Origin: Clostridiales bacterium DTU070
GTDB taxonomy: Bacteria > Bacillota > Clostridia > DSM-8532
Length of the DNA stretch: 64,000 bases
Assembly: GCA_001513105.1 (NCBI GenBank)
Contig: LFSH01000074.1
Span: 1-64,000 of the forward strand
Direction: 5' to 3'
Shown here one piece after another: positions 443 to 63,840 of this stretch. The position numbers and the translations under genes are program-made. Positions within the stretch are counted from its first letter, which is position 1. Each line of letters begins with the position of its first letter. The notes below the pieces were generated by a model. That model saw only the letters and a program-made list of their open reading frames with translations. It did not search any database and was not told the DNA's origin.

Positions 443-447
443 GCAAA

Positions 448-820
448 GATATCGGGCAATGCACGGTAACAGGTGCTCCATTTCCAAGAGCTGCACTCCG
501 CTGAAAGTTTCCTCGCATTGCACGATATCTCCGGAAACATAAAGGTAAGGATATCGTGCGAATGCTCAGAAGCAGTCGCTGCGCTTGCAAGAGCTGTGCG
601 GTTCAGCTCGGGCAAGCCGAAACTCGCAAAAATGCTATAAAAAAATATGGTAAGTGGCATTTTTGCTCAAACAGTCGGCTTGCTAATCCTCGCTCTGACC
701 GCACACCTCTATGCTGCACTTCGCTAAAAGATTCTTCGCATTGCACGATATCTTCAAACAGTTGACCTGTAAGGTAAAGATATCGTGCGAATGCCCGGAA
801 ACGGTCGCTGCGTTTACAGG
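448..820 (+). repeat. Palindromic repeat cluster 1 (one full, two partial units)
   Basis: This gene-free stretch holds three units of a window-wide repeat family. A centrally deleted unit spans 448-529, a full unit 550-752 (203 bp), and the left part of a third starts at 779 and fades out near 820, just before mnmA. A full unit starts GATATCGTGC and ends GCACGATATC, with arms pairing imperfectly around GCAAAAATGC / GCATTTTTGC. The segment from about 491 to 720 is nearly identical to 44345-44570, so these copies were duplicated recently. No conserved reading frame, ribosome site or known mobile-element protein is seen. Confidence 0.85.
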
Positions 821-872
821 AGAAGAATTTTAAATACATGAATGGTATCAGCAGAATGAAAGGTTGTGTTGC

Positions 873-11051: not shown

Positions 11052-11089
11052 CAATTCATATATTTTCTGGTAATCTGAAAAAAATACTG

Positions 11090-11365
11090 CAAAAGCGATG
11101 ACGGGGAGAAAAGCTGCTTTTTCATGCTTCAGAGAGCTGTTGTAAGGTGGAAAACAGCGCATGATGCAGTAATAGCTCGCCCCCGAGTTTCCTGGCTGAA
11201 CATCCTTTTACCGCTGACAAGTAAGCCAGGACGGTTTGTCACCGTTATCAGAAAAGGCATTATGCGAATGAGGTGGGTAAGCTCGTTGCTTGCCAATAAG
11301 AGTGGTACCGCGGAAGTTAAGCTTTCGTCTCTTGCTGATAGCTTGAGATGAAGGCTTTTTTGCTG
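11090..11365 (+). promoter_or_regulatory. T-box riboswitch leader with intrinsic terminator
   Basis: Canonical T-box parts occur in order: a GA motif (AAAGCGATGA, 11092-11101), stem I with the AGAGAG bulge (11131-11136) and GGTG apical motif (11146-11149), the GTGGTACCGCGG antiterminator core (11302-11313) that contacts the tRNA acceptor end, then a terminator whose arms (about CTTTCGTCTC and GAGATGAAGG) are followed by a run of six T near 11356-11361. Uncharged tRNA should favour read-through into the fusion gene at 11422. I could not fix the specifier codon: CTC (Leu) at 11176-11178 followed by G is my first choice, ATA (Ile) at 11172-11174 the second. Confidence 0.9.
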
Positions 11366-42559: not shown

Positions 42560-42613
42560 AACTGACCACTAAAAAAGTGACAGTTTTATAAAAATTGAAA
42601 GGGACAGTTTTAT
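42560..42613. promoter_or_regulatory. Candidate MocR operator: three related half-sites
   Basis: Three copies of an (A/G)(T/G)GACAGTT-type word lie between the divergent genes: 42560-42570 in reverse (AACTGACCACT), 42576-42589 (AGTGACAGTTTTAT) and 42601-42613 (GGGACAGTTTTAT, overlapping the ribosome site and start of the regulator gene). One inverted and one direct pair, spaced about 25 bp, is the usual pattern for MocR-family binding sites. Confidence 0.6.
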
Positions 42614-43973
42614 GGTTTTCGAGTCTGCATGGTATGAATACCGGGACAAGAACATGCCCAAGTATGTAAGACTGTATTTCTGCATACGGAGAGAAATAGA
42701 GAAAGGGAATATAGAGCCCGGCTGCAAGCTGCCTTCAATACGCCAGGTGTCGAAGGAACTTGGCTTAAGCTCCACCACCGTCGAAAACGCCTATAACCAA
42801 CTGATGGTGGAAGGATATATATGCAGTATTCCCCAAAAAGGCTATTATGCTGCAGGCCTGGATCCTTCCCTTATAAATGCCGGCAACCTGCCCGTGAAAA
42901 AAGAGATCAAGGATGAAAAGCCTGAGGAAATGGGGAGTTTTATTGATACCGAAATCTTCAATTTCGGTGAATGGAGAAAAATATATAACCGTGTGATGAG
43001 AGAACAGAAGGAGTGGCTGCTTGTTGAAGGTGATCCGCAGGGCGAGAGAGAGCTGCGGAAAGCCCTGGCAGATTATACATACAAGGCAAGGGGGGTTGTC
43101 TGCAGCCCTGATCAGATAATTATCGGTTCAGGTGTGCAGACGCTTCTGCATATTTTCTGTGATATCGCCGCAGGTATTGTAAAACCGGAGGTTGCTTTCG
43201 AAGAACCGGGTTTTGTCGATGTACGGCCGGTTTTTCTGAAGAGGGGCTATAAACTGCATCCCGTAAATCTCGGCAGGGACGGTATTGATATCAAATCCCT
43301 TTATGAATCGGGGGCGGCGGTTTGTTATATTAGTCCTTCACATCAGTATCCCACCGGGCTGGTTATGCCTGTTCAGAAGAGGATGGAGGTTATCAGGTGG
43401 GCAGACAGTACCAACGGCTATATTCTTGAGGATGATTATGACAGCGAACTAAGGCTTTCAGGAAGGCCTGTTCCGTCCCTTTACAGTCTTGACAGCAGCG
43501 GGCGTGTTGTATATATCGGTTCCTTTTCAACGGTGATCGCGCCTTCATTACGCATCAGCTACATGATCCTGCCCGGTACTCTTAACGAAAGATACAAAAG
43601 CATTATTAGCGGATACAGGTCCACTGTTTCCACCGCAGACCAGCTTGTTTTGGCCGAGTATATAGATAAAGGGTTGTTTGAAAAACATCTCCGCAGGATG
43701 AGAAAGAAATGCGCTGAAAAACTGAACATTCTGAACCGGACAGCTGCCCGTTTCGCCGAACGGCTGAAAATTCATTCTTCCGGCACGGGTACATTCGTTC
43801 TGATCGAAGCGGACAGAAAGCATAGGAATAAGAAAATTTGCAATTCATATTTGTCAGAGTTGTGGGATGGTTTTTATGTATTCAATTATGCCGGTATCTG
43901 TGCCGAAAAATACGAAGAAATTCTTGGATGGTTAGTTTCATCTGCAAACACTTTAAGTAAAGATATCGTGTAA
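42612..43973 (+). CDS. MocR/PdxR-family regulator lacking the PLP lysine
   Basis: 453 residues. N-terminal GntR-type winged helix (SIRQVSKELGLSSTTVENAYNQL, residues 37-59) fused to a fold-type I aminotransferase domain (SPSHQYPTG, EDDYDSEL, APSLRISYMILP). The position that normally holds the Schiff-base lysine (GTFSK in GabR/PdxR) is threonine here, T307 in YIGSFSTVIAPS, codon ACG at 43530-43532. PLP could still bind non-covalently. The last codons (KDIV, stop) coincide with the first bases of a palindromic repeat array, so the C-terminus may have been replaced. Confidence 0.88.
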   Translation: MVFESAWYEYRDKNMPKYVRLYFCIRREIEKGNIEPGCKLPSIRQVSKELGLSSTTVENAYNQLMVEGYICSIPQKGYYAAGLDPSLINAGNLPVKKEIKDEKPEEMGSFIDTEIFNFGEWRKIYNRVMREQKEWLLVEGDPQGERELRKALADYTYKARGVVCSPDQIIIGSGVQTLLHIFCDIAAGIVKPEVAFEEPGFVDVRPVFLKRGYKLHPVNLGRDGIDIKSLYESGAAVCYISPSHQYPTGLVMPVQKRMEVIRWADSTNGYILEDDYDSELRLSGRPVPSLYSLDSSGRVVYIGSFSTVIAPSLRISYMILPGTLNERYKSIISGYRSTVSTADQLVLAEYIDKGLFEKHLRRMRKKCAEKLNILNRTAARFAERLKIHSSGTGTFVLIEADRKHRNKKICNSYLSELWDGFYVFNYAGICAEKYEEILGWLVSSANTLSKDIV

Positions 43974-44942
43974 ATTCTCGGAAACAGTCGCTTCGTTTGC
44001 AAAGAGCTGGGCAGTTCAGCTCGGGCAAGCCAAAGTTGGAAAAGTAATTAAGAAAAAAATCAGGTGCATTTTTGATCCGTTGGCTTGCTTGTCCTCGCTC
44101 TGACTGCACATTTCTAAGCTGCATTCCGCTTTAAGTTTCATCGCATTGCACGATATCTGCAATTACTTAAAGAAGGTAAAGATACCGTGCAATGCTTGGA
44201 AACAGTCGCTGCGTTTGCAAGAGCTGGGCGGTTCAGCTCGGGCAAGCCGAAACTCGCAAAAATGCTATAGAATAAAAAAGTAAGAAGCATTTTTGCTCAA
44301 ACAGTCGGATTGCTTATCCTCGCTCTGACCGCCCATCTCTAAGCTGCACTCCGCTGAAGGTTTCCTTGCATTGCACGATATCTCCGGAAACATAAAGGTA
44401 AGGATATCGTGCGAATGCTCAGAAGCAGTCGCTGCGTTTGCAAGAGCTGTGCGGTTCAGCTCGGGCAAGCCGAAACTCGCAAAAATGCTATAAAAAAATA
44501 TGGTAAGTGGCATTTTTGCTCAAACAGTCGGCTTGCTTGTCCTCGCTCTGACTGTGCATTTCTATGCTGCATTCCGCTGAAAGTTTCCTCGCATTGCACG
44601 ATATCTGCAATTACTTAAAGAAGGTAAAGATACCGTACAATGCTTGGAAGCAGTCGCTGCATTTGCAAGAGCTGTGCGGTTCAGCTTGGGCAAGCCGAAA
44701 CTCGCAAAAATGCTATAGAATAAAAAAGTAAGAAGCATTTTTGCTCAAACAGTTGGTTTGCTAATCCTCGCTTCTTCACCGCCCATCTCAAAGCTGCACT
44801 CCGCTAAAAGTTTCCTTGCATTGCACCGTATCTCCAAACACTTGACGGTAGCTGAATATGTAAAGATATCGTGCGAATGCTCAGAAACAGTCGGTGCATT
44901 TGCAAGAGCTGTGCAGTTCAGCCCGGGCAGCGAAACCTTTAT
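43962..44942 (+). repeat. Palindromic repeat cluster 2 (four full units and one partial)
   Basis: About 1 kb without a gene. Units: A 43962-44157, B 44181-44382, C 44403-44605, D 44629-44832, and partial E from 44865 to about 44942. Start-to-start distances are 219, 222, 226 and 236 bp. B and D share one loop sequence and start GATACCGT; C has another loop identical to that in the full unit of cluster 1. The linkers after A and C are identical, so the array probably grew by duplicating a two-unit (about 445 bp) block. Each unit is an imperfect palindrome with the perfect inner stem GCAAAAATGC / GCATTTTTGC (altered in A). Confidence 0.9.
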
Positions 44943-45034
44943 AAAATTACCGGGGAAATAGACGCGTGAAAAAAACGGGTTGCCTTCTTTCTTTTCTCCT
45001 GAGCAAATTACCATCGTTTTTATCGGAATAAAAT

Positions 45035-45063
45035 TTGAACAATCACAATTTTTCTGTTATAAT
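45035..45063 (+). promoter_or_regulatory. Sigma-A promoter of the aminomutase gene
   Basis: TTGAAC (45035-45040) and a perfect TATAAT (45058-45063) separated by 17 bases. Transcription should start near 45070, giving an untranslated leader of about 370 bases. Confidence 0.7.
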
Positions 45064-60020: not shown

Positions 60021-61091
60021 ATGCATATTGAAAATATAAAACATATTAACCGGAAATCACTGGTAAGTGGAGCTTTTATCCTATTTATCCTGACTGTAAT
60101 GATTCTTATACTGTTCAAAAGCTACAGTATAAGTGAAATACAGGCTTTATTCCTGAAATTGAAAACCGGGTGGCTGCTTGCGGCGATCGGATGTATTCTC
60201 TTTTCATACTTATCCGAAATGATGTGTTTTTATGAGATAACCAAAAAAATACACGGAAAAGCATCACTGCGCACTTCCTTTCGTGTTACGATGGCTGGTG
60301 TATATTTTAACTCGGTAACACCGTTTGCCTGCGGCGGAGAACCCTTCCAGGTAAACTGTCTTATGAAATACGGGGTACCAATGGGAAGCTGTGCAAACAT
60401 TATCATGGTAAAATCCACGGTTTACCAGGCATCAGTTTTCCTTACCAGTATTGCTGCCTTAATTTTCAACGCAGCATCACTGAACCGCCTGGTAGACAAG
60501 TTCGGCCTGTTTTTCATAACAGGGGCTGCGATAAACTTTACCGTTATATTGTTTTTTGTATTATTCCTCGTAAACAAAAATGCTGCAAGAAAAGCCGTAA
60601 ACTTTGTTTTTAAACTGCTTGCGAAATGCCGTATAATAAAAAACCCTGAAAAATACAGCAAGAAAAAGGAAGAAGGGCTTGAATGTTTTAACAGGGCAAG
60701 CCGGATGATATTCACCGATGCCCGCGTTATCGCAAAGGTTATTTTTTACCAGCTGCTGAACCTGTCTTTTATATATGTTGTTCCATATTTTCTCCTTATC
60801 TCGCTCGAAGGGAAATACGGTTATTTCTGGGACATAATAACCTCGCAGGCGGTTTTGAGACAGATAACCAGTTATATACCCTCTCCGGGTGCTTCCGGCG
60901 GGACCGAAGGAATAAGTTATTTCTTCTTCAGGAATTTCTTTACAAGGACTCCTGTTGTATCTGTGATACTTATATGGAGAATTCTTACCTATTATTTCAA
61001 TATTGTTTTCAGCGGACTGTACCTTGCATTTATCGAGGCCAGGAAAGCAAAACGAAAAACAGGGTACCTGGAATCCAGGAAAGCGGCCTGA
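60021..61091 (+). CDS. Flippase-like/lysylphosphatidylglycerol synthase TM-region protein
   Basis: 356-residue membrane protein of the UPF0104 (LPG_synthase_TM) family with eight or so predicted helices. Conserved stretches are NSVTPFACGGEPFQVNCL and SYIPSPGASGGTEG. The family includes the flippase domain of MprF and glycolipid-related proteins; no synthase domain is attached here. Start ATG 60021 behind GGAGGCGT. The stop lies 30 bp before a response regulator gene that may have been cotranscribed. Confidence 0.87.
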   Translation: MHIENIKHINRKSLVSGAFILFILTVMILILFKSYSISEIQALFLKLKTGWLLAAIGCILFSYLSEMMCFYEITKKIHGKASLRTSFRVTMAGVYFNSVTPFACGGEPFQVNCLMKYGVPMGSCANIIMVKSTVYQASVFLTSIAALIFNAASLNRLVDKFGLFFITGAAINFTVILFFVLFLVNKNAARKAVNFVFKLLAKCRIIKNPEKYSKKKEEGLECFNRASRMIFTDARVIAKVIFYQLLNLSFIYVVPYFLLISLEGKYGYFWDIITSQAVLRQITSYIPSPGASGGTEGISYFFFRNFFTRTPVVSVILIWRILTYYFNIVFSGLYLAFIEARKAKRKTGYLESRKAA

Positions 61092-61123
61092 CAATATCAG
61101 AATTTAATGCGGGGGTTGAATGC

Positions 61124-61843
61124 ATGGCATATAATGTGCTGATTTGTGATGACGAGAAGGATATCGTTTCAGCGCTTAAAATATACCTGTCTTCAGAAAA
61201 CTATAATACCTTTGAGGCTTACACCGGCGAGGAATCTTTAAAGATTATTGAAAACAATGATATCCATCTTGTGCTGATGGACATAATGATGCCGGAGATG
61301 GACGGGCTTACAGCAATGGTAAAACTTCGCGAAAAGTACAATATTCCTGTTATACTGCTCACTGCCAAAAGTGAAGATACGGATAAAATACTTGGTCTTA
61401 ACATCGGCGCCGATGATTATATCACAAAACCTTTTAATCCTGTTGAAGTACTTGCAAGGGTTAAATCCCAGCTCAGGCGGTACATGCAGCTTGGAGGCGG
61501 TAATGTAAAGCCTTCGCATCTCGTCATCGGCGGGATTGAGATGGATGATAAGGCAAAAGCGGTAACTGTTGACGGCGATATGATAAGTTTAACCCCGAAG
61601 GAATATGAAATACTGAAACTCTTGATGGAAAACCCTGGCCAGGTTTTTTCACCAAAGGAAATATACAAGCGGGTATGGAATGACAACCCGTATGGTTCCG
61701 AAAGTACGGTAGCGGTTCACATTCGCGCGACCGTTTCTGGGCATTCACACGATATCTTTTTTTATAGATCAAGTGTTTTAAGTAGAACAAGTGTTTTAAG
61801 ATATCGTGCAATGCGAGGAAACTTTCAGCGAAGTGCGGCTTAA
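61124..61843 (+). pseudogene. OmpR-type response regulator, 3' end replaced by repeat
   Basis: The receiver domain is intact: phosphorylated Asp in LVLMDIMMPEMDG, Thr in LLTAKS, Lys in YITKPF. The winged helix begins normally (GIEMDDKAKAVTVDG, LTPKEYEILKLLMENPGQVFSPKEIYKRVW, SESTVAVHIR), then at about 61727 homology stops and the frame runs into palindromic repeat sequence for 38 unrelated residues (ATVSGHSHD onward) before a stop at 61843. Lost are the C-terminal recognition-helix end and hairpin wing (roughly 25 residues) and any partner kinase gene. DNA binding is probably impaired. Start ATG 61124. Confidence 0.85.
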
Positions 61844-62064
61844 AGATGGGCAAAAGGAAGCGAGGATAAGCAAGCCGACGTGAGCAAAAATGCTACATAC
61901 TTTTTTGGTTTTAAAATATTTCTGCGAATTTCTGCTTGCTCGTGCTGAACTGTCAAATGCGCTTACAGATATTTGTGCAATGTAAGGAAACTTTCAGCAG
62001 AATACGGATTGGAGATAGACAGCCTGAGCAAGGATTAGCAGGCCGGCGGAGCAAAAACTCAACA
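61727..62064 (-). repeat. Palindromic repeat cluster 3 (reverse orientation)
   Basis: Units of the same family as clusters 1 and 2 but inverted. A partial unit covers 61727-61756 (ending at GATATC), a full-length diverged unit 61800 to about 61977, and a partial one 61978 to about 62064. Between the first two lies a short direct repeat (AAGTGTTTTAAG twice, 61770-61800). The cluster begins inside the coding frame of the response regulator gene. The rest of the gap up to 62242 shows nothing else. Confidence 0.85.
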
Positions 62065-62242
62065 TACTGTATAAAAAACGGGTTGAAATGAAATACCTTT
62101 TATTACATAATAGATATGGCCTGATTATCAGGAAATGGCAATTTTGAAGCAGTAAATGAAATTCAGCCAGCTGCTTCTTTTTGTATTCTCGCAGGCAAAT
62201 TTTTGCAGTTGACTGAAAATAATCAGGATTGGGGAGATTGCA

Positions 62243-63519: not shown

Positions 63520-63840
63520 GAGCATTGCACGATATCTGCAAATACCTAATCTGTTATGGTAAAGAAAAGATACCGTGCAATGCCCGGAAACAGTCGCTTC
63601 GTTTGCAAGAGCTGTGCGGTTCAGCTCGGGCAAGCCGAAATTAGAAAAATGCATATGAAACGAATATGTATGCAGCATTTTTGCTCCGTCGGCTTGCTTG
63701 TCCTTGCTTCTTTCCGCCCATCTCTAAGCTGCACTCCGCTAAAAATTTCTTTACATTACATGATATTTCTAAAACCTGAAGGTTAAGCTGCCATGCAAAA
63801 CCGGAAACAGTTGCTGAATATGCAGGAGCTGAGTCCACAC
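63520..63840 (+). repeat. Palindromic repeat cluster 4 (one full, two partial units)
   Basis: The right end of a unit lies at about 63520-63536 (GCATTGCACGATATC), a full unit at 63569-63767, and a degraded left part at about 63790-63835 before the final gene. The outer end of the full unit is diverged (ACATGATATT). Orientation is the same as clusters 1 and 2. This fills the gap 63433-63928 apart from a probable promoter region for the last gene. Confidence 0.85.

Follow-up and report, generated by a model that had tools for sequence, protein, structure and literature searches.

A probable MITE-like family of long hairpin repeats with differing ends in a single family of Clostridia

The tandem palindromic repeats found at positions 43957-44946 of the stretch of DNA analysed here (64,000 nucleotides, hereafter the window) are most probably the hairpin core of a small, non-coding, non-autonomous mobile family of the MITE type, the arrays of this genome having arisen from insertions of a like kind followed by tandem duplication. 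The hairpin family, hitherto undescribed, belongs to a type already known among bacterial elements and is built like the BOX elements of the pneumococcus. A non-autonomous foldback or MITE-like element had been among the readings offered in a preliminary description of the window, and it is supported by empty sites in congeners and by the terminal inverted repeats and exact 8-bp duplications with which the same core is associated in two related genera.

The focal array comprises four complete units and one left half, as follows:

43957..44164, + strand: unit 1, the most diverged copy, with 75-82% identity to the other units
44176..44383, + strand: unit 2
44398..44612, + strand: unit 3, the reference copy
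44624..44837, + strand: unit 4, 92% identical to unit 2 and within a higher-order duplication of about 448 bp
44860..44946, + strand: fifth unit, left half only, the right arm being absent

Five consecutive units had been proposed, of which four are complete while the fifth retains only its left half. The complete units measure about 208-215 nt and follow one another at 218-237 nt from start to start, in agreement with the period of 219-236 bp given earlier. The arm pair GCAAAAATGC/GCATTTTTGC, initially described as perfect, is exact in units 2-4, but its left copy is degenerate in unit 1. The region 44082-44392 is 92% identical across 313 nt to 44530-44840, with an offset of about 448 bp, and the alternation of the linkers, correctly noticed at the outset, is a consequence of this two-unit duplication. 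The arrays contain no genes and have no coding capacity.

Further copies are present elsewhere in the window:

445..535, + strand: unit with its core deleted, the junction lying at a short direct repeat (AGCTG) common to both arms
547..761, + strand: complete unit, 93% identical to unit 3
776..822, + strand: left-end fragment, which closes the 445-822 cluster
61727..62071, - strand: array of partial units, which ends a response regulator ORF early
63566..63773, + strand: complete unit, the orthologous site in the congener G002 being without an array

Eleven or so units in the 64 kb, as estimated earlier, are reached only when the fragments (445-535, 776-822, 44860-44946 and 61727-62071) are counted, the complete units being 547-761, the four of the focal array and 63566-63773. 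The genome of the window (G000; an assembly of 2.89 Mb in 107 contigs) yielded 81 matching pieces in BLAST searches, which group into 40 clusters holding 35 near-complete units and 54 fragments; complete units are lacking in 14 clusters, single in 21 and number two to four in five. A cluster often opens with a right half-unit and closes with a left one, and several clusters lie at contig ends. An artefact of assembly is excluded, since the roughly 40 clusters lie on many contigs, related species are among the carriers and the flanks are syntenic with array-free relatives.

Of the 31 other species of the same family that were searched, six have the hairpin core (G002, G006, G007, G008, G013 and G017), which is absent outside the family among the 99 genomes searched, G000 included. 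The named carriers, DTU069 and the AS series among them, were assembled from metagenomes and bear the label Clostridiales or Clostridiaceae. Comparison between genera shows conservation of the inner part of the unit (query positions 34-206) and divergence of the outer ends. Collections of phage, plasmid and viral sequences gave no match to the repeat, Rfam gave none on the repeats above the gathering score, and the terminal sequence of the element was not found in the literature searched, so that the description of the element as unnamed stands. Elsewhere in the window, a T-box leader is located at 11089-11335 (RF00230, 122 bits).

Clear footprints of transposition come from the related genera g4 and g5, where the core sits within longer palindromes of 322-335 bp with the ends GTTACTGTTCACACC/GGTGTGAACAGTAAC. 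The 15-mer end GTTACTGTTCACACC, with one mismatch allowed, occurs in 60 copies in G006 and 122 in G007, the reversed control and G000 both giving 0 matches. Exact flanking duplications of 8 bp are found at 9 of 52 end pairs in g4 and g5, some of which share an end and are hence not all independent, against a chance expectation of ~1.5e-5 per pair; another six of the 52 match at 7 of 8 flank bases. Exact repeats of other lengths were restricted to a single one at 5 bp, with none at 4, 6, 7, 9, 10 or 11 bp. Among the nine pairs with exact duplications there are three elements of 322-335 bp that bear the core (L040, L047 and L058). Because the core lies inside elements with inverted ends and 8-bp duplications in these genera, it is read as the cargo of MITE-like elements.

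Short forms of 47-57 bp also occur, some of them with target duplications. They were considered as the smallest mobile unit and set aside, their junctions and interiors being different from one another; internal deletion is the better reading. A 136-bp form and the 445-535 copy have short shared repeats at the deletion junction. In the g4 elements (L047, L058 and L098, in G006) the left arm has an additional insert, in which there are two small hairpins, GCGTTTTTAACGC... and GTGCATTTTGC...GCAAAAGCAC. In L106 the unit lying at 345-134 (- strand) is followed, on the side of its right end, by short tandem repeats of about 42 nt that are built from that end (ATTGCACAATATCTCATAAGCAGAATACCCC...).

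Direct repeats or target duplications flanking the G000 arrays were not above background, and the outer boundaries of these arrays vary. Mobility of the G000 subfamily rests on empty sites, since the GTTACTGTTCACACC ends and the target duplications are absent there. The features that bear on these sites are as follows:

43927..45020, + strand: segment missing from the orthologous site of the congener G002, in which the same flanks lie 37 bp apart
42612..43973, + strand: GntR/MocR-type regulator ORF, in which the array provides the final codons and the stop, the congeners ending earlier at a stop codon of their own
45035..45063, + strand: promoter-like site TTGAAC-17-TATAAT, serving the downstream radical SAM (lysine-2,3-aminomutase-like) gene, with the array upstream
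60974..61843, + strand: response regulator ORF, with Trans_reg_C cut to positions 2-51 of 77, an intact homologue matching 1-77

Arrays are absent at three loci of the window in G001 and/or G002, an insertion polymorphism between relatives. The MocR-like gene ends at its own stop codon in both these congeners. The response regulator, likewise intact in G001 and G002, is cut off in G000 where it meets the array (61727), so that the last part of its DNA-binding domain is missing, and the histidine kinase that adjoins it in both congeners has no match anywhere in G000. A deletion or rearrangement at the 61727-62071 repeat is probable. The gene next to this array in G000 is situated about 14 kb away in G001. 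The flanking genes checked are functionally unrelated (a MocR-type regulator, radical SAM, release factor, signal peptidase II, thymidylate synthase, LacI type and others). Compared with the congeners, the G000 arrays are insertions; they are found between unrelated genes, and gene ends have been replaced by them. We infer that the same mechanism moved the G000 copies, given the shared core and the empty sites.

These sites also bear on a purely mutational origin, in which template switching (quasi-palindrome correction) keeps the arms complementary and slippage resizes the arrays in a lineage without transposition. The microhomology in the deletion forms, the 92% two-unit duplication and the background level of target duplications in G000 would all agree with it, as would a covariation that lacks consistent strand preference (see below); however, the repeats occupy about 40 dispersed sites, the orthologous sites of congeners are empty and the same core has clear footprints of transposition in related genera, which makes such an origin very unlikely.

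The potential of the repeats to form a hairpin is evident from both folding and covariation. Compared with shuffled sequence, one unit folds with z = -5.7 on the + strand and -4.9 on the - strand, none of 200 shuffles being equally stable. In an alignment of 73 units, 58 pairs are formed in 93.7% of cases, shifted structures being only 35-43% paired. Double (compensatory) changes are seen in 24 of the 58 pairs (285 cells), a level matched by none of 500 shuffles, although the shuffles ignore relatedness and hence yield no probability. The compensatory change for which a test had been suggested is present; matched changes in the arms could also stem from template-switch correction of palindromes.

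A different origin for the same covariation would be a cis-acting structured RNA, a leader or 3'-UTR element transcribed with its neighbours and maintained by selection at the RNA level, as an RNase III or stability element might be. Along with the strong compensatory change in the arms, the orientation of the arrays in G000 speaks for it, 19 of 21 running with the flanking tandem genes and two against them (coding-potential gene calls); this co-orientation is not accounted for by the MITE-like model. In the relatives, however, 12 arrays run with and 20 against the tandem genes. The intermediates of pair exchange are similarly indifferent to strand, with 97 G-U against 78 A-C states overall in a structure derived without G-U pairs, and with opposite signs in the two subsets (64:34 in G000, 37:74 in the relatives). 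An excess of G-U states, as expected from strand-specific RNA selection, did appear with the structure from RNAalifold, which is biased since it allows G-U pairs; the unbiased count is even. Folding of the + strand is not clearly stronger than that of the - strand once corrected for shuffles, no terminator-like or promoter-like site occurs inside the focal array, the neighbours are unrelated and the same genes in congeners do without arrays. The best promoter-like site near the focal array is the one at 45035-45063, which is conserved in G000, G001 and G002. A cis-acting RNA is accordingly unlikely, and the long-hairpin RNA suggested at first is not supported as a strand-specific functional RNA. 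The hairpin is kept without a consistent strand preference, and since the G-U and A-C states show none, a hairpin at the level of DNA fits better than one RNA strand. The palindrome probably persists as a tolerated or needed DNA hairpin and not as a regulatory RNA of the host.

A protein-binding array, with sites of the operator, centromere or nucleoid-protein type, was the remaining early suggestion. Tandem sites with dyad symmetry are what such an array would present, and divergent promoter regions are occupied more than convergent ones (7 vs 2 in G000, 8 vs 0 in the relatives), but the intergenic background is already rich in divergent contexts (28 vs 18), the roughly 40 sites are scattered and differ in copy number, and the outer ends vary between genera. 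A role of this kind is considered very improbable.

Under the preferred MITE-like interpretation, a transposase acting in trans on the short terminal inverted repeats would copy or move the element, duplicating 8 bp of the target. The G000 arrays would descend from insertions of the g4/g5 kind whose terminal parts have since changed or eroded, and may have grown by tandem duplication of blocks of one and two units. Short forms would result when the interior of the hairpin is lost between short direct repeats in its arms, replication slippage being the probable cause. A search for the mobilising enzyme gave 0 matches to the Y1 transposase family PF01797 in G000 and none in the carriers G006, G013 and G017. 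Transposases of IS66, IS256 type and ISL3 were either absent or without the ends of the element, the genomes being fragmented assemblies. Candidate pairs of inverted ends were also rejected: that at L196, 1.5 kb apart, encloses an ORF of 401 aa that does not read as a transposase, as judged by its sequence, and the wider TIR-like pairs at L264, L266 and L272 enclose no recognisable transposase in the translations read.

The ends of the elements differ between lineages, being GTTACTG in g4 and g5, GAACTATTGTACAATA in g6 and GATATCGTGC in G000, and GTTACTG recurs with a different hairpin in G016. This species, which belongs to the genus of G006 and lacks the core, has the ends GTTACTGTTCACA around the hairpin TGTCATCCTGAACGAAGTGAAGGATCT...AGATCCTTCGCTGCGCTCAGGATGACA (L265:1342-1514), with flanks that match at 7 of 8 bases. 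Since sister species carry the same ends around another hairpin, ends and cores are modular, and they are combined differently in different species, as in BOX elements. That the core is an exchangeable module, jumping or recombined between unrelated pairs of MITE ends, with hairpins traded within the bacterial family, is a tentative and rather doubtful extension of this observation. The genus g6 has a second conserved GC-rich module, CGGTGACGACGGGCGACATGC...GAGCGACCCGGGATATGGAGACC...CGAAACACCCGA.CCAGGACCCGCGG, which flanks or alternates with the core (L049, L060, L061, L104 and other loci) and has no Rfam match in L060, L061 and L104.

Several known classes of repeats share some of these properties. 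ERIC/IRU elements of enterobacteria are imperfect palindromes of 127 bp found at many intergenic loci, as are the present repeats in being imperfect, intergenic and at many loci. To our knowledge, tandem arrays or swapped ends like those seen here do not occur in ERIC/IRU elements, and length, sequence and hosts differ. REP/BIME elements are high-copy extragenic palindromes mobilised by RAYT (Y1) transposases, with REPs of 20-40 bp (PMC3733652). High copy number, extragenic location and palindromic structure are shared with them; however, REPs are shorter, the Y1 transposase is missing in G000 and the related elements of g4 and g5 show target duplications. We know of no target duplications left by Y1 transposition. 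Prokaryotic MITEs, such as the 204-bp Correia element, are below 500 bp, non-coding and flanked by terminal inverted repeats and target duplications, with a preference for intergenic sites and stem-loops (PMC10969869). The present elements (322-335 bp, with units of about 210 nt) likewise stay below about 500 bp without coding capacity, and the core-bearing relatives in g4 and g5 have both the inverted repeats and the target duplications, the G000 copies being without those ends. Unlike typical MITEs, the present elements are long imperfect palindromes from end to end and form tandem arrays, and no autonomous partner was found.

The BOX elements of Streptococcus pneumoniae and S. suis are intergenic, structured and presumed to be mobilised in trans, with end modules around variable tandem internal modules, and in S. 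suis the same boxB is placed between different end modules, boxA/C or boxE/F (PMC3049150). The likeness, which concerns architecture alone, is that the hairpin core described here is tandemly repeated and has different ends by genus. In contrast to BOX, the internal unit is itself a long hairpin of about 200 nt, duplications of 8 bp accompany the g4/g5 ends and the hosts all belong to one family of Clostridia.

As a function of the host the repeat is ordinary. In G000 it accounts for contig breaks, one gene truncation and the probable deletion of one locus. The poorly annotated Clostridia of anaerobic digesters thereby gain a well-delimited MITE-like family, for which target duplications and a phylogenetic range are documented, together with an instance of BOX-like modular repeats outside the streptococci in which the hairpin module is kept and the ends change.
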